DNA of 64,000 nucleotides from Jaminaea rosea. Its lineage: Eukaryota; Basidiomycota; Exobasidiomycetes; Microstromatales. The stretch lies in contig NW_020289991.1 in the NCBI RefSeq assembly GCF_003144245.1, positions 248,001 through 312,000 on the forward strand. The letters run 5' to 3'. The notes beneath the pieces are model-generated. The model saw nothing but the letters and a program-made list of their open reading frames with translations. It made no database searches and was not told the DNA's origin. Below are positions 3,401 through 62,791 of this stretch, one piece after another (within the stretch, counting starts at the first letter, position 1; the number at the start of each line of letters is the position of its first letter). A program made the translations under genes and the position numbers.

Positions 3401-3618
3401 GTCTGCGCGTCGTGGAGCGCAAGGAGCTCGAGGCTGAGGCACAGGATGAGTGGGCAGAGGCCGAGAAGCGGTTGGCGAGTGGGGCCGAGGGCCTGAACAC
3501 GGTGGTGAGCATTCGAAAGAGCGGCGACGGCGTGAGCGTGGACGATGCGGAGGAGAGTACGGCCAAGAAGAGGAAGAGTGGTGGCGAGGGGCGCGGTGCG
3601 GGGAAGAAGCGCAAGTAG
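455..3618 (+). CDS. KRE33: RNA cytidine acetyltransferase (NAT10/Kre33 family)
   Basis: This enzyme makes N4-acetylcytidine in 18S rRNA and tRNA and acts in small-subunit ribosome assembly in the nucleolus. The gene reads as four exons, 455-639, 717-789, 867-1103 and 1171-3618, with consistent phases and a 980-residue product (yeast about 1056, human 1025). Exon 1 ends in YKKDL and continues as GFTTHRKKR across the first splice, which matches the family. Visible motifs are the Walker A loop (GRGKSALLG), a Walker B-like DEAAAIPLP, the GNAT core (VRVVRLAVHPQY...GYGTRALE) and the late block DWLGVSYGLTPQLFRFWKRNGY. The C-terminus is Lys/Arg-rich, as expected for a nucleolar RNA-binding tail. Introns are 63-77 bp. 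The start is the only ATG that keeps the conserved N-terminus (RIPTLLRNNV). Confidence 0.96.
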
Positions 3619-18547: not shown

Positions 18548-19929
18548 ATGCTTCCCCTCTCCCTGCTCGCCACTATCCTGGCTCTTGCCTCACTCGCGCA
18601 TGGCGGGAGTAATGGATTGGGACAGACACCGCAGATGGGATGGTCCACTTGGAATGCCTACGGCTGTGAAATCGACGCAGACATCATCATCGAGAGCGCA
18701 AAGCAGCTCGCCGACCAGATGAAGCCGTTTGGCTACGAATATCTCAACATTGACGACTGCTGGCAAGCCGCGGAGCGCAATGCACAAGGCGTCCTCGAGG
18801 CGAACAAGACGAGGTTCCCGGATGGTCTAAAGGCCGTTGTTGACCAGATCCACGACTTGGGACTCAAAGCCGGTATCTACTCCTCCGCTGGAACCATGAC
18901 GTGCGGCCGCAAGATCGGCTCGCTTGATCACGAGGAGACTGACGCCCAGAGCTGGGCTGACGCCGGGTTCGACTATCTGAAGTGTGAGTTATGAGCGGCA
19001 GAGACACATGACTCAGCGTGATTCTGACCCTGACGCTCTTTGCCCGCGCCGCGCGATTAGACGACAACTGCTTCGCGCAAGGACGTTCGGGAACGCCGCA
19101 GTTCTCCTACGACCGCTACAACAAGATGGCGACTGCTCTTAACAACACTGGCCGACCCATCTTTTACTCTCTCTGCAACTGGGGTGAGGATGGCCCCTGG
19201 AACTTTGCATCTACAATTGCCAACTCATGGCGCATCTCCGGAGACATAACGAATTCTTTCAATCGCGAGGATGATCGCTGCCCGTGCACGAGCGTGGTTG
19301 AGGGCGATTGCAACACGCAAGGATATCATTGCTCAGTAGAGAAAATTGCCAACTTCGCTGCCCCCCTCGGACAGAAGGCTGCTCCTGGCGGATGGAATGA
19401 CCTCGATAGCCTCGAGGTCGGCGTGAGCGTGGGCGAGGGATTGACACTCGACGAGTCCGTCACCCACTTCACGCTGTGGAGCATGATGAAGAGTCCCCTC
19501 ATTCAAGGCCCAGTCTTTGCCGACCTCTCGAGCCAAGACCGTGCTGTCCTCACCAACGAGCACGTCATCGCCATCAACCAGGACCCTGGCTCCACCCCCG
19601 CCATTCGCCTACAGTCAGGCAAGCAGCAAGTCTGGCAGAGCACGCTTAGCAACGACAGCTATGCGGTGGCGCTGGTCAATTTCGGCGAGTCCAAGTGGGA
19701 CGTCGAGCTGCCCCTCTCTGAAGTCTTCTTTGACGATCGCAAGCTGGCCAAGGCGTCGTGGACTGCGTACGACTTGTGGAGCGACACGGACTTCCAGAAT
19801 CCGCCGCGCAAGCCTGGTCAGAGCAAGTTGCAGGGTATGAGCGTGCAGGGCAAGCTGCCGCGTGTTGAGCTCAACCCGCATCAGACGAGGGTATGGAAGC
19901 TCACTCCCAAGAAGCACGACGAGTTGTGA
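18548..19929 (+). CDS. Secreted alpha-galactosidase, glycoside hydrolase family 27
   Basis: Hydrolyses terminal alpha-1,6-galactose from melibiose, raffinose-type sugars or galactomannan outside the cell. Two exons (18548-18983, 19061-19929) give 434 residues. A signal peptide (MLPLSLLATILALASLAHG) precedes GLGQTPQMGWSTWNAYGC. The catalytic nucleophile Asp lies in LKYDNC, with the Tyr codon split by the 77-bp intron. The acid/base Asp is the second Asp of PGGWNDLDSLEVG. VIAINQDPG closes the barrel, followed by a C-terminal beta domain. Family cysteines (DDCW, MTCG, CPCTS) are present and N-glycosylation sites are visible. Nothing suggests inactivation. The upstream region holds a TATA box and CreA-like motifs, consistent with sugar control. 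It is tail-to-tail with the kinase gene, 60 bp apart. Confidence 0.95.
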
Positions 19930-19989: not shown

Positions 19990-22485
19990 TCAAGCCGTTC
20001 CTTCCGCTGCTCGTTTGACCCCCGCTCCTGCAGCCAACTCAGCCGCCGCGGCCGCCCTCCCACTCTTCTGTCTCGCCCGCCTACTTTCCAACTCGTGCCA
20101 CTCGCCCTTGAGCTTCGAGAGAGCGTCCGCGGGCAATTTGGGCTTCGGCGCTTCTTCAGTAAAGTAAGGCATCGCCAACGCCTGAGCCGCCGAAGCGCGT
20201 TTACGTGGGTCATAGTGCAAGAGGGCTTCTGCGACGTCGAGTGCCGGTGGTGAGAGCAGGTGAGCGTAATTCTTGCGGAAGCGCTGTGACCAAACGTCTA
20301 CGGCTCCACCATCGGCGTCAGGCTCGCCGAGCGCGGGCACCGTGGGCCTGATCAGCTCGAACCACGGCAACTGCTCAGCCCCTTCCCACCTTGCCCCACT
20401 CATCGGCCCGAGCACGTCTACGATCGCCTGCACCTGATGGATCTCGTCCTGCCCCTGAAAAATCGCCTTGCGCGTGAAGAGTTCGAGGAAGATACAGCCG
20501 GCTCCCCAACAGTCGACTTCGGTCCCATAGCGCGTCGTACCGAGGAGCAGCTCTGGCGGACGATACCATAGCGTGACGACGCGATTCGTGTAGTCGGCGT
20601 CGGTACGGCGCTTGGCGTACAGGCGGGCTAGTCCAAAGTCGGCCAGCTTGAGCAAGCCCGCATTGTTGAGAAGGATGTTGCTCCCCTTCAAATCGCGATG
20701 CAGGACCGCTTTGTCGTGTAGGTAGTCTAGCCCTTCGAGGAGCTGTTTCGCCAGCGACTTGAGATGAGCAGCGCTGAACTGCACGGAGGGGTGATGCAAC
20801 ACGCCATTGAGGTCGTGCTCCATGTACTCGAAAACCATGTAGACCGCTCCTGCCCCTGGCCGCCCACTCGCCGAAGTGCTCATCGTGGTCATCATCTCGT
20901 GCAGCCGCACCACGTTCGGGTGGCGGAGCATCTGGAGTAACTTGATCTCTCGCATGGCCGTGATGGGGAATCCGTCCTTTTCGCTCTCCATGCGAATCTT
21001 CTTGAGCGCAACGAGGACGCCGGTAGTCTCGGATCGAGCCTTGAAGACTTGGCCATACGTTCCCTCGCCGACTTGGGCGATGCGCGTGTAGAGCTCGGTG
21101 GGTAGGGCACGCTGCGGTTGCGCTGGCGTGACAGGCGTTGCGTCCTCGTCTTCATCGCCTTCGTCTTCGCTAGGACCGAGCACAGGCGAGCTAGCCAATG
21201 TAGTCATGACTGCGGGCACGCCGGGATTGTTGGAGGCTACTTCGAGGATCTGGCGTGGCGCTGGCTTGGTCTCACCGCTGTCACGCCGCTTGATCCGCTT
21301 GACCGCTTCCGGACTGAGCGAGGCCTTGCCGCCGCTCTGCGATCCTGTACCGCGATCCGACGGCGTCCTTGACCTCTTCCACCCTCGATCCCTGCTCTCG
21401 TCGCCATTCGCCCTGCTATTCCTGCGATCGAGCTCAGGGCTTCTGGATGCTCGGTTCGCACGACTTGCTGCTGGACCTGTGGGTGGGGCGCCATCGCGAC
21501 GATCTGCACGCGGACCCGTAGGTGGCTGGCGAGGGTGACGTGGCGGCGAACGTGATGCAGACCGTGGACGGCGAGGGGTGAACGACGTGCGCGATGGTGG
21601 ACTCGGAGGAGGACGGCGTGTTGCGTCGGCGCTGTCCTCCATGTCAGCATAGTTGAGCGAGTCTGAGAAGATGTCCTTTGCCGTAGCTGAGCGAGAGGCG
21701 GCTCTACGTGCCTTTGTGCGAGCATCTGGATCCGGGCCAGAAACGGGGGTGGATGTGCTCGTAGTGGTGCTTGATGCTGGTGGCCTACGCCGCGGCGAAG
21801 TTGGGGCGCGTGGTGGTGGTGATGCCCTGCGGCGAGTCGCGCTCCCATCTCTTCGCCTGTCCCCCTCTCTCGCGCCAGATGAATCCCGCGAAGGCGAGCG
21901 CGATCGCCTCTTTGCGCTTGTGTCATCCCTGCCACTCTGATTGACCCGATCGTCTCGACGATCGCGCTCCCTATCCCGCCGAGACGCCCAGCTATCTCGT
22001 GGCCCTTTAGGTGTCGCGCCATAGTAACCCTCTGCAGCCCATCTGCCCGCCCCAGCTTGCTGAGCGTAATAGCCGCTTGGACCAGCTGACGGTCCATAGG
22101 CAGCTGCGTAAGGATCCATGCCATAATATCCCGCCGCCTGAGGATGCCAAGCTTGAGCGGCTAAGTAGCGATCATCGTAATCGCTTCGTCGAGGGCCTCG
22201 GCGCTGAGCGTCTCGGTCGTTGCGAGCGGCGGTGTCGTCTTCTCTTCGCCTTGCTCGATTGCGATCGTCCTCTTTTGCTTCACTACGCCCTGTATCTCTG
22301 CCTGGGATCCCTTCCTCTCCTCCCCTCTTGACCCTTCCAAACTCGTCGGTATCCTCTTGCTGAGCAGATGCAGCTGAGCCTCGAATCGTCCAGGCACCGG
22401 CGCTGTCGCGTCTGGAATTTCGCCTGCTGCTGCTTCCTTCGCCGCCATTGCTATCGTTGGGCGGCCGCTCGCCTCTGCCGTACAT
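19990..22485 (-). CDS. CTK1: Cyclin-dependent kinase of the CTK1/CDK12 type
   Basis: This kinase group phosphorylates Ser2 of the RNA polymerase II CTD with a cyclin partner, coupling elongation to RNA processing. It is a single exon of 831 residues. I chose the ATG at 22485 (MYGRGERPPND) because upstream in-frame codons cover a repeat-rich leader. The first 440 residues are disordered, rich in Arg/Asp/Ser with RS-type dipeptides, as in CDK12/13. The kinase domain shows the Gly loop GEGTYGQVF, ALKKIRM, the cyclin-binding helix PITAMRE, the catalytic loop HRDLKGSN, DFGLAR, the activation segment DADYTNRVVTLWYRPPELLLG and DCWGAGCIF. A basic Ala-rich tail follows. The PITAMRE helix and RS-like N-terminus favour the CTK1/CDK12 branch over CDK9, though both are possible. 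Confidence 0.9.
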   Translation of the reverse strand: MYGRGERPPNDSNGGEGSSSRRNSRRDSAGAWTIRGSAASAQQEDTDEFGRVKRGGEEGIPGRDTGRSEAKEDDRNRARRREDDTAARNDRDAQRRGPRRSDYDDRYLAAQAWHPQAAGYYGMDPYAAAYGPSAGPSGYYAQQAGAGRWAAEGYYGATPKGPRDSWASRRDRERDRRDDRVNQSGRDDTSAKRRSRSPSRDSSGAREGDRRRDGSATRRRASPPPRAPTSPRRRPPASSTTTSTSTPVSGPDPDARTKARRAASRSATAKDIFSDSLNYADMEDSADATRRPPPSPPSRTSFTPRRPRSASRSPPRHPRQPPTGPRADRRDGAPPTGPAASRANRASRSPELDRRNSRANGDESRDRGWKRSRTPSDRGTGSQSGGKASLSPEAVKRIKRRDSGETKPAPRQILEVASNNPGVPAVMTTLASSPVLGPSEDEGDEDEDATPVTPAQPQRALPTELYTRIAQVGEGTYGQVFKARSETTGVLVALKKIRMESEKDGFPITAMREIKLLQMLRHPNVVRLHEMMTTMSTSASGRPGAGAVYMVFEYMEHDLNGVLHHPSVQFSAAHLKSLAKQLLEGLDYLHDKAVLHRDLKGSNILLNNAGLLKLADFGLARLYAKRRTDADYTNRVVTLWYRPPELLLGTTRYGTEVDCWGAGCIFLELFTRKAIFQGQDEIHQVQAIVDVLGPMSGARWEGAEQLPWFELIRPTVPALGEPDADGGAVDVWSQRFRKNYAHLLSPPALDVAEALLHYDPRKRASAAQALAMPYFTEEAPKPKLPADALSKLKGEWHELESRRARQKSGRAAAAAELAAGAGVKRAAEGTA

Positions 22486-22824
22486 CGTACGACGTTGGCG
22501 CGAGGATTGGTGGGTCTGTTGGCTGCGTGAACGACGAAGAGGACAAGAGTTGCTGGGCGGATCGACGGACCGACGGACGGACAGACGGACGACCAACTCA
22601 GATTCAATTCCTCCACGCGACGGAACGGGCTGCAGCACTGTGGCTGCATCGAGACGCGATGGCAGCAGCTCTTCTTGTTTCCCTTTCATCTCAAGCTTTT
22701 TTTCAGACTATGCTCATCGTGTCAAAGTGTTTTAAGGGAAAGTAACTTTCGTGGGGTTCGGATCAAGATCAAGAGTAAGAGTGTCGAGCATGAACGAGAG
22801 CGTCTGCGGGCAAGAGACCATGCC
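22486..22824 (-). other. Kinase 5' leader with GACG tetranucleotide repeats
   Basis: 339 bp between the kinase start and the upstream pepsin-like gene's stop. A GACG/GGAC-type tetranucleotide tract runs at about 22564-22592. The frame upstream of the kinase ATG stays open through it but looks non-conserved. Confidence 0.4.
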
Positions 22825-26697: not shown

Positions 26698-29600
26698 TTA
26701 AAGGTCGTGTTCTCTGCGAAGAACCGATGTCACTCCGCCGAGTACATTGCTCACAGCTGACCTGCCAGCCGAAGCCACTGGCGCTGCAGCGCTGGAAACT
26801 GGTGCGGCAGCGCTGTTCACTGCGCTCTGCACAGTAGTTGCCACACCACCCGCAGCTGACGTCGCATCTCCTGCGAGAGACTGAGCAGCAGGAGTTGACG
26901 TCGCGGCCGTGGTAGAGGGCGCCGCCGATGTGGTGCATCCTGCGCTGACGAGCAGGCCGAGACCGAGTGGCTCGCCAATGTCACAGATGAGTGCCTTTGC
27001 TACAGGATTGCTGACCAGGCCGCCGATGAGGCCTACGAGACCGGAGCCCACAGCCTTGAGAGCATTCGCCAAAGCCGACGTTTGAGCTTCGTTGAGACCC
27101 TGCTCGAGGACCGTCGTAAGCTGGTTGGAGTTCATGGTCCTGGCGAAAGCGGGAAGCGTGCCGCCCGCATCTCCAGCCGTGATGGCGCCCTTCACGAGCG
27201 TGGTGAGCGTGCCGGCCCCATTCGCTGCGGCGGCGCCGAGACCCTGCGTGAGAAGATTAGTGCCATTGGCAGCGAGGGCCTGTGCGACGGCAGGAGCGGC
27301 TGCACCGTTGTTGGCGCCCATGAGCAGGCCGAGAATGCCGCCAAGTTGATCGCCAGCTGCGCCCAAAAGCCCTCCCAAGACGGGGATGTTGCCGAGAGCG
27401 CCGAGAAGCGCGCTAGCAAAGTCGCCGCCAAGCTTGAGAATACCCTGGATGAGACCCAGCAGGTCGCCCAGGCCCTTGCCAAGTGCACCGATGTCGAGGG
27501 GTACACAGACCGTGGCCGCTTCATCGGCACAGATGAAATAGCGGGTCTTCACATTGATCTCATCGTAGAGGAATGAGGGGGCGTTGTACCCGCCGCCATC
27601 CGAGCCGATGTTGACCGAAAGCTGATTGAAGACGTTCAGGTTGTGACCAATGAGAGGTACCGAAGCCAGAAGACCGACGAGACCGTTGCCCTTGACGAGG
27701 CGAATGTTTTCGATCGTCGGACTGATGGCTGTGCCCGGGTTGTTGATCGTACCGCCGGGCGTGGTAAAGCCTGGGTCGAAAGTATTGTTGAGAACGGCGT
27801 ACGGGTCCGAGTTGAAGGGCTCATCTGCGCTGCGAATGACCGAATTGAGCGTGTTGAAGGTGATTGCAGCGGGCAGCTGGTCCTGAGTGTAGAGCTTGGC
27901 GCTGACGGTGGGGTTGGCCGCAAGGTTGAGGGCTCCCAACAGCGTGGGCAGCGAGAGGAAGACGTCGATCATCGTGACAACGCGAGAGCCAATGCCATCG
28001 ATGGTGCCGTCCGCCTGGACGCCTCGGAGTGCTGGAACGAGCGAGTCGTATGGCGTCAATGGCTGCGAGCCACCACCAGTGCCCAGAATCTCGATGGGAA
28101 TCTTGAGCTGCGGCGTCGACTCGGTCTGCTCGACAGGCTGCAGGTACGAACGGAGCAGATTCTGCGCGACTTCGTTCCCAGGGTTGTCGGGCATGTACTG
28201 GAAGTTCGTCGTGATAACATTGGTCCCGGGAATGAGGCCCAACTGCGGAATGATGGCACGACCCACGTAGACGTTCCTGTAGACGATGGGCAGACTGACC
28301 TGGTCCGTAAAGACGGTGAGCTGGCTCGGGTTTTCCAGGGTAGCCTTGAGCGGAATGAGAATGTACTGCGGCGTGCCTCCTTGTACGACGAGGTCTGAAG
28401 TCGTGAAGACGTGATTGAACGAATTGATACCAGCGAGCGAGGTGGTGACGTTGAAGGGAATTCCAGGGTTCTGCAGCGGAATATCTCCAATGACCGTGCG
28501 AGCAAGGACAGACGTTGTACCCTTGAGACCGAAGTCAGCTCGGTCCGTGTCAGTGAGCTTGGCAAAGAAGGCCTGGAACGAAGGGCGATCGATGGCGGCG
28601 ACGTCTTGGTCCTTGAAGTTGAGCAAGAGCTGCTCCCTGTCGTCTGGTCCCCTCGACGTGCCTGCCTGGACAGGAGCTGAGGGGAGATTGATCTGAGCCG
28701 TGTCGACGCCTTGGTACGTGAGCGTGATCATGGGACCAGCCCTGATGGGCGTGAGCGAGAAGCGGAAGGGGTTGGCGAAGATGGCAACCGTCTGGTTGTT
28801 CGATCCCTTGATGACGTACGGGTCCGGGCCAAAGATCTTGGCCGTCAAGTCGGACAGCGTAATGGCAAAGATGATCTGATAGATCTGGCCAGGGAGAACG
28901 GCGTTGGTCTGGAAGCGCTTGAACGCTGCGGTGAGCCATGAGACGGGCTGGTTGCCGTTTGCTTCTGTGACGACGGAGACACCGCGGAGCTGTAGCGTCT
29001 GGTTGTTGCCGGCCAAGAATTGCGAGAAGAGGATACCGAGCACGTTGAGGTTGGCCGTGTTGCCTGTCTGGTCCTGGATCTGACCAGTCGTGTGAGCGAG
29101 CGTATTGGCAACACCAGGTTGCCCGCTGGCAGGCTTGGGAGCGAGGAAGAGACCCGTCGCTTGAATTGGCCCGACGTCTACGCCCATGAAGAAGATCTCG
29201 AAGTTGACCGTGTCAAGCTGCACTCCCAATGCCGAGGGCGAAGGGATATTGGCGTCGGCCTTGATGATGAGCGCGTTGGACGTCTCACCAGGGATGTCGA
29301 ACGACGTGATGACGATGCCCGGCAGACCATTGAAGACGTCGAGAGAAATCGACTTTTGCAGGATGGTGTTGCTAAACGCGATACCGACGGCGCTGACCTT
29401 GACGGAGGGGCTGTGAATATCCCACGTGAAGCTGGGGTTCTTGAGAATGTACTCGGCAAAGTCGATGAATCCTGCGCATGTTGATAAGGAGCGAGCAAGG
29501 TTAGCGTGTTCAACTGCCAGTCCCTTCGCGCGCACTCACGGTCCTGGTTGGTGATCGTTAGGTGGCCCTGCGTGTTGAGGTCAGGCGTACCTGATCCAGC

Positions 29601-32600
29601 AGCCGAGCAGATGGGCGGCAGCTCAATCATAGCGATCTGCGAGCCCATCCAGTCGACCAAGATTCCGTCAGGGAACTCAATGTACGCATCAGCCGGCGCA
29701 TCGGTGAGCAGCGAACCCTTGAGCGATACGTCGAAGCCCGTGTTGACGAGGTTGGTCGCATTGGCTTGAGTGAAGAAGAGCGTAGCCTCGTTGACGATGA
29801 TCTGAATGAGCGGGGCAGCAGCAGGACCAACAAGGTAGAGCGCTGTGTTGTCCGTGTCGGTGGGGACGGGCTGCTGAATGAAGTTGAGGTCAGTCTGATA
29901 ATCGTCAAGCTTTAGCGTCGACTCGATGGGAATCGACGTCTGCAGTCCCTTGAGCAAGTTCAAGATGGCACCCAAGATGTCGAACTGCCTGCCAGAGTTG
30001 CACGGAGGCGGGGTGTCGTAAGGGTACGGCGAGATCGTCGTCCTCGTGTCGGGCAAGTCGAGAACCCTCTGAAGGAACGGAGGGAAGGGGCCCAGGCTCG
30101 TGCCCGTGTTCTTGGCTGCGGTAAAGATGAAGCGAATCAAGTTCTTCGGGTCGATGTTGAGGTTGATGGGAATCTGCCTCGATGTCGTGACCTGGTGACC
30201 AGGGTTCGACAGCGGGTTGCTGGTGAAGTCTTGATCGATCGTACCCAGCGTGATCAAGCCATAGTCGGAGGGACCAAAGTAGTTGGCGAGCGCGTGCAGC
30301 CTCAAGATGTTGATGCCAGCGGTGAAGGGGTTGGCGATCATGACGGAGGCCTGAGCAACGCCAGTCTGCGCAATATCCTTGGGCACAACGAGACGGGCCT
30401 CGATGACGATGAGCTTCATCAAGGGCGGGATCTCGGCCGTGAGCCTGATGCCGGACAGGGCTTGGACGAGCGACTCGATGGGCGTCGTCTGCTGCGTACC
30501 AGCGACAATCGTGGGCGACGTGATGTTCTGAACGTAGTTCTCCAGCAGCGTCTGACCGGCGCGCACGTTCTCGGCACCCTGAGGGCTGTAGTTGATCTGC
30601 GTGGGCACAATGTTGGTTCCAGGTACCAAGACGATGTTCTTGATCAATGCCATACCGATGGGTCGGTCCTGGAACAAGACGGCGAAGCGCACGTCGCCGG
30701 CACCAATGGTAATGTCCGACGGGTTGTACAGTGCAGTGTTGACTGTGATCAGCAGGTACGTCGGGTATCCATGCACGACGTCGAGGTTCGAGACGACGGC
30801 GGGGCGAGCATTGAGGTTCTGCAGACCCAAGATGTTCGTCGGCAGATTGAATGGAATGTCTGAGATGGTGACGACACCAGCAGCTGTGCCGGCCTTGGCA
30901 GTCGCCGCACCATGCAGATTGAAAGTGACTTGGTCCCTCGCCGTCGTGTCAGCCAGGAATTGCGAGAACGTCGGGTGCGAGTTGTCGTAGACTTCGAAGG
31001 GCACGTCGTTGAAGACGAGGGTCAAAATGCGCGCCTCGACATTCGTGGTAGCTTGCGAAGCCAGCGGAATGTTGAGTACGGCGGCATCCTGTCCATTGTA
31101 GTTGGCAATGAAGGGGCCACCCGTGTTCTGAATATCGACGGGGAAAGCAAAGGGCAGGTAGAAGTTGGCCGTCGTGTTCTGCGACGACGTCGGAGGTGCC
31201 CAAGACGACTGCACCGTGAAGAAGAGCGACAGCTGGTTGATCGAGACGACTCGAATGACGTCAAATGCCTGCGCGGGCAGCGAGACGTCGACGGCGAGGA
31301 CCTTGATACCGTCATTGAGCCAGGCGACATTCGAGGGGCCAGCATTTTCACCATGCACCACAATGTTGCTAGGGGTGTTGTGCACAAAGCGCGTAAAGAC
31401 CTCAGAGAGGACGGCAAGGCCGGTATCGTCGTTCTGAGGAATCAAGCGACCGACGAGAGGAAGCTGCGTAACAGCCAAGGCCTGCAGCGTAAACTCATTC
31501 TGCGCCGCGGCAGGGCCAATTTGAGTGTCGTTGCGGGTGATCGAAGTGCCGAATGTTGAGAGCTGAACACCGACTTGGGCAGGGCTGTTGATCGTCGATT
31601 GAGCAGTGAGATGAATACCGCCGGCCTCGTCGTTTGATGGCAGGTCGAACGAGTTGATGATGACCATGCCTCGCAAGCCGTTGAAACCCGTGAGCTGAAC
31701 GTCCTTGGAGATGGCGATGTTGGGCACCGTGATGCCGAGCGCCGCCACCGACAGACCCTCGCCGCGAATCGACCATACGAAGGAAGGTTGCGTGAGAAGG
31801 AACTTGGTGAAGTCGGTGAGGTAGGGCACACTGGGCACGCGAGCCTCGACCATGACGTTGAGAGAAGCACCCGTGTCGCCCTTGAGCTGGACGTCCGGGA
31901 AGGATGTCTGGACGAGGAGCTGGCCCTGCCAGAAGATGCTCAGACCCTGAGGGAAGGAGATCGTGGCGTCAAAGGGACCAGAGTTGGTAATGGTGCCCTG
32001 GAGCGCGACCTGGAAGCTCTCTGGCTGCGGGTTGAGAATCGTGACGCGATCGATGTTGAGGACGGCATTGTCGACAATCTTCTGCACGATGGGCGAGGCC
32101 AAAACGGGTAGCAGCTTGTTGAGCGATTCGTCCGTGCCAAGGGGAACCTCGGTCTGTGAGAACGTCAACGTCGTGTCGTACTCTCCAATCCTGGCGTCAG
32201 AGACGATTTCGAGGTTGAGCGTGGCCACTCCGAACGCCCGATCGACGTAGCTCGGCAGATTGAAGCCCGTGTACAGGTTGTCACGCTTCGTCAGCTCCAT
32301 GTGCTCGATGCGCTTGGCCAGTTGCTCGTGGTCCTCGTACGGCGCGGCGCGCTTGGCAAACTCGAAGCCATCGTCCTCCTCGCTGCCATCGCTGCGAGAG
32401 TGCGGTGCCTCAGCAAGGGCGCCAGGGTTGGAGCCAACGCCAAAGAGCATCTGCGACAACTCGTCGTCCTCCTCCAGCACAAACGACTCCTCGTCCGATC
32501 CACCAGGCAGACCTCGGCGCGAAGGCGTGTTGCCGTTCGCAGCCGTCGTCGGCGTGTACGTGTAGCCGCCCAACGCGACAACGCCGTCGAGGTACCTGGG

Positions 32601-35040
32601 GTCTTGGCCCGACTGCACGACCAGGCCACGCAGAAGACCAAAGATGTCAGGCGGGTACAGGTTGAGGCTGAGCGGGATCGTAGGAGAGTTGGTCAAAGCC
32701 TTGCCGTTTGCGAGGAACTCGAGACGGTGATCGATGTTGGCGATGAAGATGCCCTTGGACGAGGCATTGGCGACGATGCGGTTGATCGTCAGGCCAGCCG
32801 TGAAGGGGTTTGCCAGACCAACGACGGAATTGGCGACAGAGTCGGTAATTCCCGTCGTGTCCAGCACGGTGAGATTGGCAGCATTGACGAGCTTCGTCGA
32901 CAGACCGGGCAACGTCGAGTTGAGACGAATACCACTGAGCGTGACCGCCAGCGACTCGATGGCGCTTGAATCAGCAAAGCCAGAGATGTTGAGCTGAGTG
33001 TCTTGACCCGAGATGAAGCGGTTGAGCGTCTCGAGACCCTGAGGAGCACGGTTGGGGTCGAAGAAGGACGTGGCGTTTACGTCGACTCGGCCAATGGCGA
33101 GGTTGAGGTTGGGCAGCGTGACATTGCCCAGCACTACCTCGTTCTGCAGCTGGAAGATGGAGTCGCCGACGGACAAGTTCAAATTCGACGGGTTGACAAC
33201 GGTAGTGCCAACGACGAGCGAGATGGCGTCGGGAGCACCACCCACGACATCCACCGAGTTGATGACGGTGGGGTACTTTCGCAGGCCAGCAAGACCACGC
33301 AGACCAGAGCCTACACCGAACTTGATGCCGTTGAGCAGCACACGACCAAGCGGCGTGTCTGTGAGCGCCTTGGCTGAGCCCATCAGCCTGAAGTCAGCGG
33401 CCTCCATGTACGTGAAGGCGTTCTGGAAAGCAATGAGTTCCTGACGCGCTGCCTGCGTGTTGTTGGGCAGGACAAGCAGCGAAGGGGGAAGCGTGATGTC
33501 AATGACACCCGTCGTCTCACCAGCGCTGATGATGTCGAGGTGCGTCGTGGAATTGGAGTAGCCGGCATTGATGTCACCGACATGGGCGCCCTGGTAGATG
33601 ATGCTGATCGAGTTGGACAGCGAGACAATGTCAAGCGAGAAGCCAAAGGGCAGACCAATGCTTCCGCGCAAAGCCTGCGAGAACGTCGTAGGGTTGTACG
33701 GGTTCTGCTCCGAGTAGATGAGCGAAAGGTAGTCGATGGTGATGCCCTTGATAGGGTCGATGGGGATGGGCGTCTGCAGCGGGACGTTGACCACAAGGGC
33801 CTGGATACCCGTGCTGAGCCATCCCACCGTCTGACCATTGGCCAGCCTCGTCGAGATACCGCGCGCCTCGACGGGGACTGCCTCGCCGTTGATGTAGCCC
33901 GTGAATAGCTCTCCAAGCAAGTCAAGCTCCGTCGAGTTGTCCTGGTGGGGCACGAGCTGGCCAGCGATCAGGATACTGTTCAGTCCCTGCGTGATGTTGA
34001 CATTGTTGGCCTGCACTTCGCCGAGGAACATGTCCCTGTAGTACAGGCCGAGGTTCAACGTGCCCAGCTGGATACCAAACGGTGACGGATTTCGCAGCTG
34101 CGTGAGTACCTGCGTCGTGATACCCCCTCGCGGGTCGTCACCGGGCAGCTGGAAGTCGAGAACCTTGACATCAGAGAAGCCGTTGATACCCTGGAAGACG
34201 ACGTCCTTGGTGAAGACGAGGTTCTTGTATGTAGGCAAAAAGCTGAAGGCCTCGACGTGGACGTTGCCACAGCGCAATTGCCAAGTGAACTCGGGCTCAG
34301 AGACGAGGAACCTGGCAAACTCGCCGAATCCCTCCTCATCGCGGATCAGGAACGTCGTGGCCTGTGTGCGCACCAAGAGAGGGCAGAGTATTGAGTCAGT
34401 GAGAGGGAAGCGCGATCACATCTCGCCATCGCCACGCACCTGCTTGACGCGACCGTGACCTGCCGCGACACCGATGTAGTCGAGCGTCATGGAACCCAAG
34501 TGCAGCTCGCGCATATTTGGTGGCGGTGTGTTCCAGTACACCTCGACAGGCTCTCGGAAGTAAAGGTGAGCAGGGAAGATACCCGTCTTCTTGACCTGAC
34601 CCTCGATCGACAAGGGGAAGGATGAGTTGCCAATGTCGGTGAGATTGGCAGCGTAGACGTGAAGCTGCGATGTGTGGAGAGCATGGTTGCCGATGGCCCA
34701 CAGTACAGGGACCAAGGTAATCACGAGGGTGATGATGATGATCGGAGGGGCGAGGAAGAGACAGCAGAAGCCAAGCTTCTTGCTCAGGTACTTGTGCTCG
34801 TACGGTGTACCGCGAGCGTCTGCGGCGAGGTGGGACGGGAGGACATGGGAATGCTAATGTCAGTGAATGATGTGTTGGGAAGCCGCGCTGCATTGCAGCC
34901 TACTCACAAAGGTATCCCATGGGTCGACCAGGCTGGTACATGCCAGCTCCTGATCTGACTGAACCACCATCACTACCTGCTCCGCCACGCCGCCTTCGGA
35001 CCAGGTCCGTCCTGGACCCATACGAGGCGTCGTCGGCCAT
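26698..35040 (-). CDS. Giant single-pass membrane protein with repeated DUF3712/LEA2-like domains
   Basis: Four exons, 35040-34908, 34819-34440, 34361-29540 and 29471-26698, give 2702 residues with matching phases. The N-terminus is cytosolic and basic (LVRRRRGG). One transmembrane helix lies at about 61-87 (CCLFLAPPIIIITLVITLVPVLW). The rest should be lumenal or extracellular beta-sandwich repeats. A block of the form F-x-W-x-I...KDV...GFNGL...FDLP...GGI begins near residues 183, 1021 and 1780, so the module occurs three times, each preceded by a second block type (VNIDRV/VNEATL...LxG...DAxIxFP). The C-terminus has Gly/Leu-rich hydrophobic stretches and a 75-residue Ser/Thr/Ala tail. This matches fungal DUF3712 proteins, of which the yeast vacuolar protein Tag1 may be a relative (from memory, uncertain). 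Possible roles are lipid or cell-wall contact; no catalytic motif is visible. Confidence 0.82.
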
Positions 35041-38230: not shown

Positions 38231-41180
38231 CTACCTCGCCGGAGCCGTAGCAGTCGAGGCGCCAGCTTGCCCGCCCTCAACGTGCTTCTCCCAAACTCCC
38301 AGCAGTTCAACGGCGGTATCGATGGCGATCTCGGTCCCATCCCTAGCAATGCGCAGACTCTTGTTCTCGTTCCAAGGGTTGCGCAAGTGCTTGACAGCCG
38401 TGAATGGCAACGAATTGGTTTGGACCCACTCAACAGAAAAGGTGTGGCCGAAAACTTCTTCTGACGAGGGGGAGGGAGAGGGACCTGAGACTGAGGCGCC
38501 CTCTGCCGCGGTGCTTGTATTTGTAGAGGGCGAGAGAGTCATGGTGGGGGTGGGAGTCGCGGTGCCAATCGATCGGCCGCCGTCTTGCTTTGCAGCAGGT
38601 GAAGTGGTTGCTTCGCTGTCTCGCACTCTTGCCTGACCCGAAGCAGCCAAATTCTCCTGCACTGCGAGCTGACGCTCCAATTGCTCAGCCTTGCGCTGGC
38701 TCTCTCGCTGGTCGATGCGGAGATTGTGAATGATGGCGCGCGTAGCAAGCTGGGTGGCCGCTCGGGCATCGCTTGAGGCTGAGTCACCTGGCGTGAGCGA
38801 CGAGGAGTACGAGACAGATGTTGCGGCACTGCTGTCCATCGCAGCTGAAGGCTGTCCATTCGCCATCATGTCCCTTCTCATGACACCGTCGTCGGTCAAG
38901 GCTTTCTTGCCAGTCTGAAGGCCCGTAGCTGTGCCAGGCAGCAATTCTGCCTTTTGTGCTTCCTCATTGGGCGTCAAAGCCTGAGGTGAGGTGACGAGAG
39001 TAGGTCCGCTAGGCGCGTCTTGCTCGCTGGCGGCGACAGCTTCAGTCTCTTGCGACCGATTGGCCTTCGCCTCCCGGCCCGGGATAGGCCCAGCCATTCT
39101 TGCGTACCCAAAGAAGGCCCCACTCCCATTGGCCGAGAAGACTAGGATCACTCTGTCGCTGTTCCTGAAAGCCTGCGCCAATACAGCCTCATTGTGGGGT
39201 TGCGTTGCCCATGTGCGCGTCTCTACGGAGCGGTCCAGCTCCTCGATTGTGCGACTCTTGAGGATGAAGTAGCGAGTGCGAAAGGCCGGGTGGCCGAGGA
39301 GGCCTGAATTGGTGCTCGTGTATGACACCTCTGCGCTCGAGCTGCCGATGGAGCTTGACCCGACTGAGGCGAGAGTGTTGGGCGAAGAGAGTGAAGCGAC
39401 TGCTTCCCCGCGGAGGTTGGAGGTGTCGCTGAGTGACAGGCCCGCTACGTCGAGACAGTCCGTCTGTGCTTTGTTGTTGGTCGAGGGGCTTGCGCTGGCG
39501 CCTTGTGCAATTGGACCTTCTCCTTCGCCGCGCGACTGGCCGAGCTTCTCACTCTCGCGACGGCGGTACTCCTTGAGGAAAGCGACGTGAAGCCCTTTGC
39601 CCCTTTGACCTCCTACGCCAGCCTGCACCTCGTCGCTCTTCTTCCTGATGCGGCAGACGAGCTTCGGGCAACGAGGGTCCTGAGGACGAAGCGGGTGGCC
39701 ATTAAAGAAGAGTACGGCCCTGTCGAGGCGGGAAGGCGTGGAGTAGTTGACGAAAGCGCAGTTGGAGCGAGCAATGATGAAAATCGAGACGATGCCATGA
39801 GGAGCAGCTTCGTTGAGGCTGGGTTCGTCATCGTCTTGTGCGTCGGCTGGAAGCTGAGAGAAGAAGGCGCGCAATTCGGCTTGAGACGCATTTGCGGGAA
39901 CATTGCCCACCCACATGACATGCTCTGATCGCAGCCCGACCGGAGGCTTGCCGTAGCTCGAATCCACTGAGCCAGCCTCCGTCGGAGAAGTAGCGAGAGC
40001 ACCTTCTGCCGGCTCTCCGGTGCTTCTCGTGTCTTGACGGAGAGGTGCGCGGGACGCTCTGCCTTGCGAGCCTGAACCGCGGTAGCCAACTCGTGAGGAC
40101 GGAGAGGACGCGGCCAGTGCTGGGGCTGGACCTCGTGGCGGGGCGTAGCCCATCGGCTGCTGACGTGGGTAATGCTGTTGGGCCCATGTGCCAGGCGAAG
40201 AGGCCGGCACAGCAAACTGCGGAGATGCGGCTACCGATTCGTGGTAGCCCATGGCGGCAAGTTGTGCATATTCCGGACTGCTTGCGGAGACATAAGGCTG
40301 AGGTGGCATGGGTCCAGGAGTGGTTGGGGAAGGATAAAAGCCGGCCACGCTAGTGTAGGGCTGCAGAGAGGGGTGCGAGAAGAGGTAAAGTCAACTCTTG
40401 CTCCTTGTATGCTGCTGTGGATCTGCTCACCGAGTAAGCGTAGGTAGGAGGCCACTGTGCGGAACTGGCAGAGTCAGTCCTTCCTGGTCCTCCAAATGAC
40501 TCGTAAGCAGGCTGCTGATGCATCCCGGACTGTGGTGGAGATGAGGCGTAGCCCTGCGGCGGCGGCTGTTGCTGCTGATAGTGTTGCTGCGGCATCCCGG
40601 CACCGCTGGCTGCCGAGACCGACAAAGCCCCCTGTGCTCCTGCCCCTCCTGCGACCGCTCCTCCCGAGCCTGCGCTGGACCCGTATGCAAACGCTGCTTC
40701 TGGGTGCATAGCAGGCCCGTAGCCGGCGGTGGCACCGGAGAGATCAGCTGCATATTGCATCCCTCTCCCACCTCCCTGATAAGCCTGGTAAGCTTGCTGC
40801 TGAGGCGGAGGCAATTGCGTCGAATCCGATCGGTAGAGATGTTGATGCTGGCTCGGAGGAGGAGGGGCCGGTATGCCGGCTTGGCCCGACATGAAGGCAG
40901 GCTGCGGCTGCTGCTGCTGTGGGTAGCGGTATGGATCGGCCAGGCTGTATGCTTCTGCCGTCGTAGCTGCGGCGCCAAAGCTGGACATGCTGCCCGCGTG
41001 GTGGAAGGAAGAAGACGACGGAGAATGGGATGCACGAAGAGTCGGCGGTGACGATGGCGTAGCAGACAAGGGCGAGATCATCGTGTCTTGGGATGCTTCA
41101 CTGACGTGAGCCGGTTGAGATCCCGCACGCTGCTCGCGCTGATCCGCTGAGCTGTTGCTGGGCGCTGTATCTGGCATCAT
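38231..41180 (-). CDS. RNA-binding protein with RRM and YTH domains (m6A reader type)
   Basis: Two exons, 41180-40431 and 40360-38231, give 959 residues. The first about 390 residues are disordered and Gln/Pro/Ser/Ala-rich. An RRM follows at about 393-490 (EHVMWVGNVP; SNCAFVNYSTPSRLDRAV). The YTH domain begins near 611 (RYFILKSRTIEELDRSVE, then TWATQPHNEAVLAQAF with the first cage Trp, VILVFSANGSGAFFGYARM) and ends at about 887-935 (FSVEWVQTNSLPF, HLRNPWNENKSLRIARDGTEI). About 200 Ser/Thr/Ala/Gln-rich residues split the two halves. YTH domains bind N6-methyladenosine RNA; the sequence type is closer to YTHDC1 than YTHDF. The second cage Trp, expected in the loop now occupied by the insert, is not visible. 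The role is probably in mRNA decay or meiotic-type RNA control (inference). Confidence 0.9.
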
Positions 41181-58091: not shown

Positions 58092-60316
58092 TCAATTCCT
58101 CCCAATAAATTGATATACGATCCTCCTCACCAGCCCACTCAAATGCTCCGGACTCCTCGCGTATGTACCCATCACCAGCCCCATGCCCGCGCTTGTTAGC
58201 AACAAGTCCCCACCGGGCACAAAGGGCGCCCACCCACGCTTCCTCGCAACGGACCAGGCACTCTCCATGCCTTTTGGTAGGACGTAAGCCGCCAGCTCTG
58301 CTCGACGTCTCGCATGGTCGACGAAGAGGGAGCCGCAGGTTGCGAAGCCTGCCAGCCAGTGCAGGGTCGACCCACTGAGGAAGTCGAGCAACCATTTAGG
58401 CGCGCCAGAGCCAGGTCGGGCGAGGAGATCGTGTAGCTGATGTGCCGAGCAGAACAAGGTCTGGAAGATGATGACGAAGACTCCCAAGAAGGAGGAACTG
58501 CGGACCGCCCCAAAGATGGAGCGCAATAGTACCCGTAGCGGTGATTTGAGGAAGGAGCCCGTACGCAGGAAGAGGGCGGGGACGAAGTGCAGAGTGAGGT
58601 AGACGGGCAAGATCCAGCGCGTCACTTCAACGAAGCGATCGAGCGGGGAGAAGAGGTGCGAGTCTTCCCATGGGTGGACGAGATGACAGGGCACATAGTC
58701 CTGGGTGAGTAGCGGGAGGGAAGAGCGGTCAGCGTTGCTGCTCGAAATGTCTGCATCGAATCGTATTGCGTATCGCAGATCGCGCATCGCGTGGCGCTAC
58801 TCACCCCCGGGCTACCCCCAGCTCTGACTCTTTTGATCCACTCGATCATCTTTGTGGCATTCTTAGCCGTCATCCCTCGTCGGTTTCCAGCCGTAGGCAG
58901 CACGTTGCCGTACTTCTCTGTCCCATCACTCAATACCTTGACGGGGTCAGGCAATTTGCCATCCGGAAACCAGTACTTGATTACCATATCCACATCGGGC
59001 TTGTTTCCCCTCGCGATGTCTCGATGTACTCCGGTGACTCTCGGTGTGACCATGGACGCGTTTGTGATCCAGTTGACGTACCCGCGGGGAAGCGTCTCTG
59101 GTGCGTTTAGCCAGGCGTACATGATCTGCCCACAGGCGAGACCGAAAGCCAGTACGGCTCCGTGAGGGATGTTGACCTTTCCCTTTGCATGAGCCACATT
59201 GTAGCTACCTTCGAGGCCGCGCACAAAGAGCTGTTGAGCGAGGGAGATGCGGTTAGGCTTCGTCTCTGCGAGGAGGGCGAGGGACGAAACGCAGCCGGCG
59301 AGGTAAGCGTGCCAGATTTTGGAGCGAGGGTCATCCCGCATGAAGGCGCGACGTTTCTGCTGCGACTTGACGTGGGCTTTCTCTTCGTCCGTCTTGCCTG
59401 CTAGCTGGTGGTAGCCTGAGCGAGGAGTGTTGACGCCTGATGGGCCGCCCGCCGGAGTGGAGCCATTACTCTCATCGGCTCCCATAGCGGTTGCGTTTGG
59501 GACTGGGTCGGTGCTGATGGGGACGGCGCGTTGCTGCTGTTGTTGGTGCTCATGGCGGTGATCATGACCAGCCTTCTCCCCCGGCACGGGTGTAGAGGCT
59601 GATCTGCTGCTCCTCTTTGTTGTAGGCGGGGGCAAAGGAGTGAGCAGTCGTAGAGAGTTGTGTACCGTCTTGTACAGTCCGGCCCAAATGCCGAACATCA
59701 TTGCGAATCGGAAGTTTGGAATAGAGAAGAAGGCTTCGCGGAGATCCTTGCCGCGTACTGTCCTCTTGCGCAGCCCCTTGACGAGGGCGAGGACAAGCAT
59801 GAGAGTCGCCCTGAGCCCGTAGGCAAGGTTGAATGCTCTCAGCCCACCACGGAAGACGTGAACCGCCAACCTCTCCCAATCTCCGGGCAAACGTGCCTGC
59901 TCATCGTGGGGTCTCCATACTTTATTGCCCACAGATTTGCGTATCTGCTGAGGTGGCATCGATGAGAGCTGATGTAGCCCATGAACGGAGAGTGATCGTC
60001 GAAGCTGTTGTGCCGTTTCGGAGATGTTGGGAGTCTGAGGTGCGGAATGAGCTGAATAGAAGTTGTTTGCGGCCTCGTCGTCGGATGAAGGCGAGTCCTC
60101 ATCATCGCCTTCATGGCCCGACTTCGTCGACGAGGTGATCGAGGTGAAGTGGGGAAGGTGAAGGTGAGGGTCTCGTCGCCGTGTTGAAGTAGTAGCCGAG
60201 GGCTGCGAAGCTGATGGTGAGGTCGTAGGGGGGGAATCACCTTCGTCGTCATCTTGGTCTCCGCCGGGTATCGAGAAAGAGGGCGGCGACTTGGAAGGAG
60301 GCACCCCAGATGGCAT
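58092..60316 (-). CDS. TMEM135-like membrane protein
   Basis: Two exons, 60316-58805 and 58700-58092 (104-bp intron, phase 0), give 706 residues. About 145 disordered acidic residues are followed by segments typical of the fungal TMEM135 family: FRGGLRAFNLAYGLRATLML, FRFAMMFGIWAGLYKTVHN, WHAYLAGCVSSLALLAE, HGAVLAFGLACGQIMYAWL, VHPWEDSHL, and near the end FVDHARRRAELAAYVLPKGMES with the C-terminal membrane block. Animal TMEM135 is a peroxisomal/mitochondrial protein affecting lipid and cholesterol handling and organelle dynamics; the fungal role is unknown. A His/Gln-rich insert (HDHRHEHQQQQQ) lies in the loop after the second hydrophobic segment. It is head-to-head with the SQR fusion gene. 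Confidence 0.87.
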
Positions 60317-60772
60317 GGCGCGGAGAGATTGCGAGGATGAGCGAGTGGATGCCTTTTTGGTGCTGTATGATCGCTATCTAGTCGCGACACATTGGTGGTG
60401 GTGATGATGATGACAAGGAGCAACAGTCTTTAAAAAGGCTTTGCTACAGCCTTGACCGCTTTGCCTGGTATACCGAACCTCTCGTCGAAGCGATCGCTTG
60501 CAATGCAATCCAAATGTCGCCTGCCAGGTTGCGTCGCCGATGGCTTTCCCCACACTCGCCCCTCGCCGAGTGTGCGTGAATGCGTGGCTTTGACAGACCC
60601 CAGAGAGAGACACAGGTCTTCGACGGAACGGAAGAAGATGCGTGGACGACGTCGACGGACAGAGGAGGTGGCCGCCTCTTCACTTTAGAGCCGGCAGAAA
60701 GCCGTTGGCAACGCACACGAAGCAACTTTCTTCTTGATACCGCCACCACTCATCAATTGGATCACACCAGCT
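60317..60772. promoter_or_regulatory. Divergent region, TMEM135-like / SQR-mL58 fusion
   Basis: 456 bp between head-to-head genes, with no recognised TATA box. The two products both concern mitochondria or peroxisomes, so co-regulation is conceivable but not shown. Confidence 0.35.
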
Positions 60773-62791
60773 ATGGTAGCCCCTCTTCGAACAATGGCGG
60801 CCGCCTCATCGTCATCATCATCATCAGTCAGGCCCGCTCTGAGCAGTCTCGGCCGCCGCCACCTGGCCACGCCCGTCTCTTCTGGCTCTCGGTCGTCTGC
60901 CCATCGCATCCTCGTCATCGGCGGTGGAGCAGCCGGTCAAGCAATCTCACACCAGCTGCTGCGAAGTGGCGCTTTCCCCAACAAGCATGACATTGCCATC
61001 GTCGACCCAAAGACGACGCACGACTACCAGCCTGGTTGGACATTGGTGGGCGGCGGCCTGAAGAAGAAGGAGGACCTTCGCAGACCAATGGCAGATTTGG
61101 CTCAAGAGAAGGAAGGACTGGGTCTATACAATGACGCAGTCGAGTCCTTTGACCCGGACAACAACTGCGTCAAGACCCGTGATGGCCGCACATTGTCCTA
61201 CGAGCATCTCATCGTCGCACCCGGCTTGCGCCTCATGCCTGAGAAGGTCTCGGGCCTCTCTGAAGCCATGCGAGACATGGATGCCAAGGTAGCAAGCATT
61301 TACGACTACGATTCCTGCGACCGTGTCTGGGACCTCGTTCAACAACATCGCTCAGGCCCAGCCATCTTCACTCAGCCCCCTCAACCACACAAGTGCGCCG
61401 GCGCACCCCAAAAGATCATGTGGCTTGCCCTTGATCATTGGAAATCGCAGGGCCTCAGCCGATCTGATATCCCCATCACGTATGCCACGGCCCTTCCGGC
61501 CATGTTTGGCGTACCAAAATATGCGGCCACTCTCGAGGCACTGCGAAAGGAGCGCGACGTCGAGGGCCTCTTTGGTCACAATCTTGTAGCGGTCAACGGG
61601 TCAACAGCCACCTTCGCAAAAGGAGAGGAAAAGGTCACCCGTCCCTTCTCACTCCTCCACGCCGTCCCACCTCAAGGCCCTCACGACTTCATTCGCTCCT
61701 CTCCTCTCGCAAACCCCACCTCCGGCTTCGTAGACGTTGACGACAAGACACTCCGACATGTCAAGTACAGCAACGTCTGGTCTGCTGGTGACTCGAGCTC
61801 ACTACCGACGAGCAAGACGGCAGCAGCAGTCACTTCTCAGGCCCCGATTCTCGTCAACAATCTCCTATCCTCTCTCGCAGGCACCTCCGATGCGCCACAA
61901 GAGTACGACGGTTACACCTCCTGCCCAATCCCAACCGAATACGGAAAGCTCGTTCTCTGCGAGTTTGCTTACAACGGCGTGCCTAAGGAGTCCTTTGGCC
62001 CCACTTTGGGCATCGATCAGGCTCAACCCAGCCGTGCCTTTTACTACCTCAAGCGCGACTTCTTCCCTTGGGTCTACTTCAATGCTATGGTCAAGGGGAC
62101 TTGGGCGGGCCCCAACGGTTGGTTGAGCGCGCCCAAGTGGAAGGGAGCTGCGCCCAGCGTAGGTGGCGGCCAGGCCAGGGCCTTCTCAAGCGTAGTGGGA
62201 AAGATGGGCGGCTCAAACGGTGCTGCAGGACGTCGCGGCTTCGCCACGTCAGCCCGCGCTGCGCGTGATCAACCATCACGTCGCCCTCGTGACCCCCTCG
62301 AGCGCGACTCGACGGCAGTGCGCTACGCCCTTCCCGGCGGTGAGACGCTCATTGTCCGTCCTGCGCCGTCCAGCGGTGGTGGCTCAAGCACCGGGAGCAG
62401 CGCGACGACGACTACGACGGCGGACCCTGCGAAGATCCTGGTCGAGGAGGCGAACAGCGAGGCGTACCTTCCCCCAGCTCTTCGCCCGCGAACCGCACGC
62501 AAGCAGCAAGCCCGCTTCAACTCTACCACCCCGCGTCGAACGGACCTTTCTCCTTCTGAGATTGCTGAGATTCAAGCCCTTCGCCGCGAAGGGGGCGCCT
62601 CCGTGCCTGACATTGCGCGGAAGTTCAACTGCTCCGAGGTGTTTGTAAGGATCGTTGCGCCTGCGGGAGCTGAGGCGAAGAGGGAGGCTCAGAGGGGGAT
62701 GGAGCGGGTCAGAAGGGGTGAAGAGGGGAGCACGAGGTTTGGTGATCTGCTGAGGAGAGAGGCAAGGAGGGCTAGGAGGGAGATGTGGTAG
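60773..62791 (+). CDS. Sulfide:quinone oxidoreductase fused to mitochondrial ribosomal protein mL58/Mrpl20-like
   Basis: One uninterrupted frame of 672 residues holds two proteins. Residues 1-30 (RTMAAASSS..SSLGRRHLAT) look like a mitochondrial presequence. The SQR part (about 40-460) has the FAD fold ILVIGGGAAGQ, the reactive cysteines Cys208 (HKCAGAPQKIMW) and Cys384 (GYTSCPIPTEYG) in the two-cysteine eukaryotic pattern, SNVWSAGDSSSLP, and the C-terminal membrane-associating MVKGTWAGPNGW where the enzyme normally ends. A second presequence-like stretch follows (Met478, GRRGFATSARAARDQ), then at about 566-672 an mL58/Mrpl20-like region (LPPALRP; LSPSEIAEIQALRREGG; DIARKFNCSEVFV; basic tail). 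SQR oxidises sulfide at the inner membrane; mL58 belongs to the large mitoribosomal subunit. No stop or intron separates them. Processing or an internal start at Met478 may release mL58 (inference). Confidence 0.86.
   Translation: MVAPLRTMAAASSSSSSSVRPALSSLGRRHLATPVSSGSRSSAHRILVIGGGAAGQAISHQLLRSGAFPNKHDIAIVDPKTTHDYQPGWTLVGGGLKKKEDLRRPMADLAQEKEGLGLYNDAVESFDPDNNCVKTRDGRTLSYEHLIVAPGLRLMPEKVSGLSEAMRDMDAKVASIYDYDSCDRVWDLVQQHRSGPAIFTQPPQPHKCAGAPQKIMWLALDHWKSQGLSRSDIPITYATALPAMFGVPKYAATLEALRKERDVEGLFGHNLVAVNGSTATFAKGEEKVTRPFSLLHAVPPQGPHDFIRSSPLANPTSGFVDVDDKTLRHVKYSNVWSAGDSSSLPTSKTAAAVTSQAPILVNNLLSSLAGTSDAPQEYDGYTSCPIPTEYGKLVLCEFAYNGVPKESFGPTLGIDQAQPSRAFYYLKRDFFPWVYFNAMVKGTWAGPNGWLSAPKWKGAAPSVGGGQARAFSSVVGKMGGSNGAAGRRGFATSARAARDQPSRRPRDPLERDSTAVRYALPGGETLIVRPAPSSGGGSSTGSSATTTTTADPAKILVEEANSEAYLPPALRPRTARKQQARFNSTTPRRTDLSPSEIAEIQALRREGGASVPDIARKFNCSEVFVRIVAPAGAEAKREAQRGMERVRRGEEGSTRFGDLLRREARRARREMW

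Follow-up and report, generated by a model that had tools for sequence, protein, structure and literature searches.

Aco2 of Schizosaccharomyces pombe is described as an aconitase fused to the mitochondrial ribosomal protein bL21 (PMC11431987). For the same species, the account of Rsm22–Cox11 gives a tandem that is cut after import, with the first-named part, Rsm22, an assembly factor of the small mitoribosomal subunit (PMC12375894). PMC8847149 describes Arg5,6 of Saccharomyces cerevisiae, a tandem precursor from which an internal cut by the matrix processing peptidase yields two enzymes, and it names Atp25, Etp1 and others as composite precursors with predicted sites. On the ribosomal side, mL58 is described as a component of fungal, not of mammalian, mitoribosomes (PMC11345376).

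We have analysed an open reading frame (ORF) in a stretch of 64,000 nucleotides of Jaminaea rosea DNA, referred to below as the window, that encodes a predicted sulfide:quinone oxidoreductase (SQR) followed by an mL58 domain. Like Aco2 as described, it unites an enzyme of mitochondrial metabolism with a protein of the large mitoribosomal subunit in one fusion; here, unlike in Aco2, that enzyme is a quinone reductase of the inner membrane and its partner belongs to the membrane-facing protuberance. With Rsm22–Cox11, in the form in which that tandem is presented, it shares the combination of a mitoribosome-related and an inner-membrane protein, although the ribosome-related part is there named first and cutting of our protein is deduced from its sequence. 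The two parts of the present protein, SQR and mL58, are unrelated, unlike the two products of Arg5,6, which both act in one pathway. In Aco2 the enzyme is the first of the two parts.

The pairing of SQR with mL58 was not found in the open-licence literature, in a search to which the spelling 'sulfide:quinone', with its colon, was inaccessible. The original prediction, made from the sequence of this locus, had stated that no description of such a coupling was known. Within the limits of our search this holds for the particular pair; the kind of arrangement is, however, an established one, to judge from the accounts of Rsm22–Cox11 (PMC12375894) and Aco2–bL21 (PMC11431987). The same fusion could exist in other fungi and could even be annotated there.

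The open reading frame and its surroundings

The frame is open for 672 codons without interruption, from the ATG at 60773 to a TAG at 62789–62791 on the forward strand, and encodes a product of 672 amino acids (Table 1). Upstream of the ATG the nearest in-frame stop is at 60686. Within the presumed presequence there is another in-frame ATG, at 60794, with A at −3 and G at +4. Both domains are complete and are read in the same frame, and the ORF, its coordinates and its two domains are real, as had been predicted. Neither domain is matched a second time among the 985 six-frame stretches of at least 40 amino acids in the window.

On the left, a gene on the opposite strand begins at 60316, leaving a gap of 456 bases to the ORF; on the right, a minus-strand ORF ends at 62914, after a gap of 122 bases. 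The left neighbour (58092–60316, minus strand), which is divergent, consists of two ORFs that are joined across a 104-base GTGAGT...CAG intron (58701–58804) to give a protein of 706 amino acids. Its first ORF has no Pfam match, and we presume a resemblance to membrane proteins of the TMEM135 type. Elsewhere the window contains genes for an RNA cytidine acetyltransferase of the NAT10 type (1141–3618), the C-terminal part of an alpha-galactosidase (19126–19929), a protein kinase (19990–22689) and a YTH-domain protein (38231–40309). Two DUF3712 ORFs at 26698–34031 on the minus strand seem to have been broken apart and probably belong to a single gene interrupted by a short intron. Five candidate introns restore a single frame there, including a 68-base GTGAGT...CAG at 29472–29539, and these speak against taking the suspected frame error as a sign of poor assembly.

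Table 1. Features of the SQR–mL58 open reading frame, in window coordinates.
Feature	Position	Strand	Basis
SQR–mL58 tandem precursor (candidate), single ORF, 672 amino acids	60773–62791	+	
Presumed mitochondrial presequence, residues 1–31, ending R-H-L before A-T	60773–60865	+	Motif at residue 29; putative function
Sulfide:quinone oxidoreductase (predicted), residues 32–460	60866–62152	+	Human SQOR match; ends of bacterial relatives; fold match
Reactive-type Cys208 (KCAGAPQK)	61394–61396	+	Aligned with human and bacterial SQRs
Reactive-type Cys384 (YTSCP)	61922–61924	+	Aligned with human and bacterial SQRs
Linker, residues 461–490, net charge +4, model confidence <50	62153–62242	+	
Processing-peptidase-type motif RAF/SS, residues 469–473	62177–62191	+	Motif search
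Met478, possible internal start, A at −3, G at +4	62204–62206	+	
Processing-peptidase-type motif RGF/AT, residues 488–492	62234–62248	+	Motif search
mL58 (MRP-L20) domain, residues 505–672, near-full family profile	62285–62788	+	PF12824; Neurospora crassa 6ywe_a
Helix-turn-helix-like mL58 core, about residues 589–625	62537–62647	+	Sub-threshold HTH matches; highest-confidence part of the model

The sulfide:quinone oxidoreductase domain

Residues 44–447 match chains of human mitochondrial SQR (SQOR) with an E value of 6e-85, and both cysteine blocks are aligned. This bears out the original description of a complete SQR with both reactive cysteines. The two are Cys208 and Cys384, which we take to be the reactive pair of SQR. 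A search of genome contigs yielded relatives at 17 loci. Every one of these lies in a bacterial record and none matches past residue 470, and they therefore inform the SQR part alone. Fifteen of the 17 entered the alignment of bacterial SQRs; the other two, L001 and L017, had no intact ORF under the filter used. Both cysteines are kept in all 15 aligned sequences and likewise in 12 of 12 sequences of a second alignment. Since the ORF filter sought the Cys208 region, conservation of that residue is partly by construction, and Cys384, to which this does not apply, provides the cleaner test.

In the 15 bacterial SQRs whose ORF is intact, the sequence finishes at a point corresponding to about residue 460, whereas the protein described here runs on into mL58. 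Near that end, 90% or more of 13 alignment rows share Trp450 and Pro454, and the presence of these residues in frame shows that SQR is read intact as far as 62134 or beyond. Twelve bacterial relatives went into a whole-protein model, whose mean pLDDT is 61.3. When it was used in a fold search, the eight best matches were all human SQR, the best with an E value of 6.8e-39 and a TM score of 0.86 by target length. By homology over the whole fold, and by its two cysteines, the N-terminal part is a predicted SQR, like human SQOR and the bacterial enzymes in having a complete domain, both cysteines and the same fold.

In NCBIfam the ORF scores highest with a selenoprotein subtype of type III SQR, at 225.6 bits where the cut-off is 525; the ORF protein has cysteine at both reactive places. 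At the bacterial locus L001 there is no ORF with the cysteine motif, and this locus might encode a selenoprotein.

The mL58 domain

In the whole ORF, Pfam family PF12824 (MRP-L20, which is mL58) is matched by residues 505–672 over profile positions 4–164 of 164, with an E value of 1.9e-13 and a score of 51.3 bits, the cut-off being 30.4. The C-terminal part alone scores 55.7 and 55.4 bits. Comparison with the family profile also upholds the mL58 identity first proposed for the last part of the protein, the final 117 residues by themselves scoring 46.3 bits against the same cut-off, but the domain had been drawn too short: it spans residues 505–672, not 560–672.

Single-sequence comparison gave less. 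The Neurospora mL58 chain 6ywe_a was matched with an E value of 0.062 by the whole ORF, and of 0.0067 and 0.005 by the C-terminal part. In one comparison a single engineered repeat protein matched the C-terminal part slightly better than Neurospora mL58 (0.0055 versus 0.0067), and in a second comparison two engineered proteins, at 0.00065 and 0.0021, stood before mL58 at 0.005. We set these engineered matches aside as weak stretches, none of which passes alone. Because they are similar to or better than the mL58 match, and because the whole ORF reaches just 0.062, the pairwise sequence evidence for mL58 is weak when taken by itself.

An AlphaFold2 single-sequence model of 62204–62788 was poor overall, with a mean pLDDT of 59.6 and a pTM of 0.29, its helical core being better. 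Submitted to Foldseek, this poor model found mL58 at ranks 1–3 in the PDB, namely Neurospora 6ywe_a and yeast 5mrc_a and 3j6b_a. The best of these, the Neurospora chain, has an E value of 1.2e-3 and a probability of 0.99; none reaches an E value of 0.001 and the TM scores are low, at 0.21–0.28. Since the ranking of the fold matches agrees with the profile, we regard the predicted membership of the C-terminal part in the mL58 family as established, chiefly by the profile. The part resembles mL58/Mrpl20 in its near-full family profile, and chains of that protein are its best fold matches, at low TM scores. Neurospora mL58, however, is a ribosomal protein of 225 residues, whereas here mL58 forms the tail of an SQR.

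A search of viral contigs returned no relative of the mL58 part or of the whole protein, and neither this search nor that of the genome contigs gave a fungal sequence. A search of 15 genomes with PF12824, one of them bacterial and 14 controls, gave no match, an answer that does not show absence. The mL58 core gives matches to HTH_38, HTH_7 and HTH_23. All are below their cut-offs and were put aside as to identity, but these sub-threshold similarities suggest that mL58 might have been derived from a DNA-binding helix-turn-helix domain.

The junction between the domains

Because the bacterial SQRs stop at about residue 460, residues 461–504 lie outside both conserved domains. In the model of the whole protein the pLDDT is below 50 over residues 439–500 and 502–516. 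The sequence pattern R-x-[F/Y/I/L]-[S/A]-[S/T] is associated, in the account given of plants, with Icp55-type processing after the matrix peptidase, and the pattern in yeast and mammals is called very alike (PMC8847149). Our motif, R-x-[FYLI]-[AS]-[ST], was defined from these plant data. It occurs at exactly three sites in the protein, beginning at residues 29, 469 and 488. The last of these is the processing-type site RRGF-ATSA to which the original prediction had drawn attention; a second junction site, RAF-SS at residue 469, had been overlooked.

A background set, made up of 17 further stop-to-stop ORFs that are 300 amino acids or longer and not all of which are necessarily genes, contained the motif seven times in 10,694 residues, which corresponds to 0.029 expected in the 44-residue junction compared with the two present. 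When the junction was shuffled 20,000 times, at least one motif appeared in 1.6% of cases and two appeared in none; shuffling of the whole protein gave three or more motifs in 0.4%. These statistics are support and not proof, since the motif was picked after the original prediction was known. We consider the two linker sites to be candidate cuts for a matrix protease, bearing in mind that a motif is not itself a cut. Amphipathicity or basicity does not discriminate the linker: the 43 basic, acid-free windows lie at the N-terminus, between residues 440 and 481, and at starts of 564–573, the last within the mL58 domain.

The frame contains no stop in the 132-base junction. Mononucleotide shuffling leaves a stretch of this length open in 34% of cases as well, and the open junction alone is therefore weak evidence. 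More telling is the lack of any stop codon belonging to SQR itself: homology continues in frame to Trp450 and Pro454, and just 69 bases lie between the Pro454 codon, which ends at 62134, and Met478 at 62204.

Around the junction there are 21 GT–AG candidates, of which the best donor agrees with the consensus at 6 of 9 positions; a branch-point match accompanies none of them. With two of these candidates the protein would terminate close to the junction, at 453 and 499 amino acids. The absence of a splice signal noted in the original prediction is thus confirmed in the sense that no convincing one is found, and we have discarded a junction intron as the main explanation, given candidates with donors of at most 6/9 and no branch point. 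A scan with a stricter intron consensus returned 33 matches on the plus strand of the window, none beyond 58000, and 36 on the minus strand, with two beyond 58000. One of the two is the intron of the left neighbour at 58701–58804, which the scan recovers; the other, 58918–59081, sits in an open frame and looks false.

A probable precursor of two proteins and the alternatives

The locus has one frame, two complete domains, a linker that is modelled as disordered and carries two processing-type motifs, and no convincing intron. On these grounds the polyprotein reading offered in the original prediction is also ours, and we judge it rather probable that this is a nuclear gene whose product is a tandem mitochondrial precursor, imported and then cut into SQR and mL58. 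Precedents are Rsm22–Cox11, in which the cut follows import, and Arg5,6, with its internal cut by the matrix peptidase. The presequence of SQR would bring the whole chain into the matrix, where the matrix processing peptidase and Icp55-type trimming would remove it after about residue 31. The linker would be cut at one or both of its internal sites, after Phe471 and/or Phe490. The SQR product would bind to the inner membrane and, if its predicted activity is correct, pass electrons from sulfide to quinone, while the mL58 product would assemble into the large mitoribosomal subunit. The ORF copy would then be the working copy of mL58, unless another mL58 gene exists elsewhere in the genome, and two unrelated mitochondrial proteins probably derive from one precursor in this cell.

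We think it somewhat unlikely that the locus instead produces several transcripts, with an internal promoter in the 3' end of SQR giving an mRNA from Met478, or with early polyadenylation or a weak splice giving SQR alone, or with both. Met478, correctly named in the original prediction, lies at 62204 with A at −3 and G at +4, and the 12 residues after it end in a processing-type site, as they might in a free mL58 precursor. The weak splice could be that of 62118–62178, which lacks a branch point and would end SQR after 453 amino acids, and alternative 3' ends occur in the aconitase–bL21 fusion. However, SQR has no stop unless the junction is spliced or polyadenylated, and the splice candidates are as poor as noted above. 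There are, moreover, 18 AUGs from 60773 up to Met478. On their account we have rejected leaky scanning to Met478, and they make it unlikely that a single transcript yields both proteins through alternative starts, as had also been suggested; because they precede Met478 on the SQR transcript, a separate mL58 would need the internal promoter. We regard it as highly improbable that these are two ordinary adjacent genes between which a stop has been lost through an error of sequencing or assembly. The +1 frame has stops at 62124, 62160 and 62193, so that an error of one base anywhere from 62135 to 62203 could conceal where SQR ends. Yet 62100–62260 contains one run of at least four equal bases (CCCC at 62110), the 69 bases from the Pro454 codon to Met478 are very short for a 3' end, a promoter and a leader, and for both of the other apparent frame breaks inspected in the window there are candidate introns whose removal restores the frame.

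The protein might also stay joined, at least in part, with SQR holding mL58, and hence the mitoribosome, at the inner membrane. SQR is itself an enzyme of that membrane, and model confidence is low over the 44 residues that separate the conserved domains, as for a flexible linker. Such an uncut form is conceivable because mL58 is listed among the proteins of the membrane protuberance, for which a role in anchoring mitoribosomes to the inner membrane has been proposed (PMC11345376). We nevertheless hold this to be improbable, since the two processing-type motifs of the linker predict cutting and since the amount of SQR would be bound to the number of ribosomes. More doubtful still is the idea that an uncut fraction builds SQR into the protuberance through mL58, such that anchoring and possibly translation would respond to the state of sulfide or quinone.

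Implications

The fusion need not couple sulfide oxidation to translation. If the full transcript is the sole one, SQR and mL58 would be made one to one. The two linker motifs make internal processing in the matrix directly testable and, because mL58 belongs to the membrane-facing protuberance, the protein is a natural test of whether such fusions stay joined. SQR–mL58 adds a pair to the few genes known to us that join a mitoribosome-related protein to another mitochondrial protein and, if the fusion is shared by a clade, it would serve as a rare-event marker.
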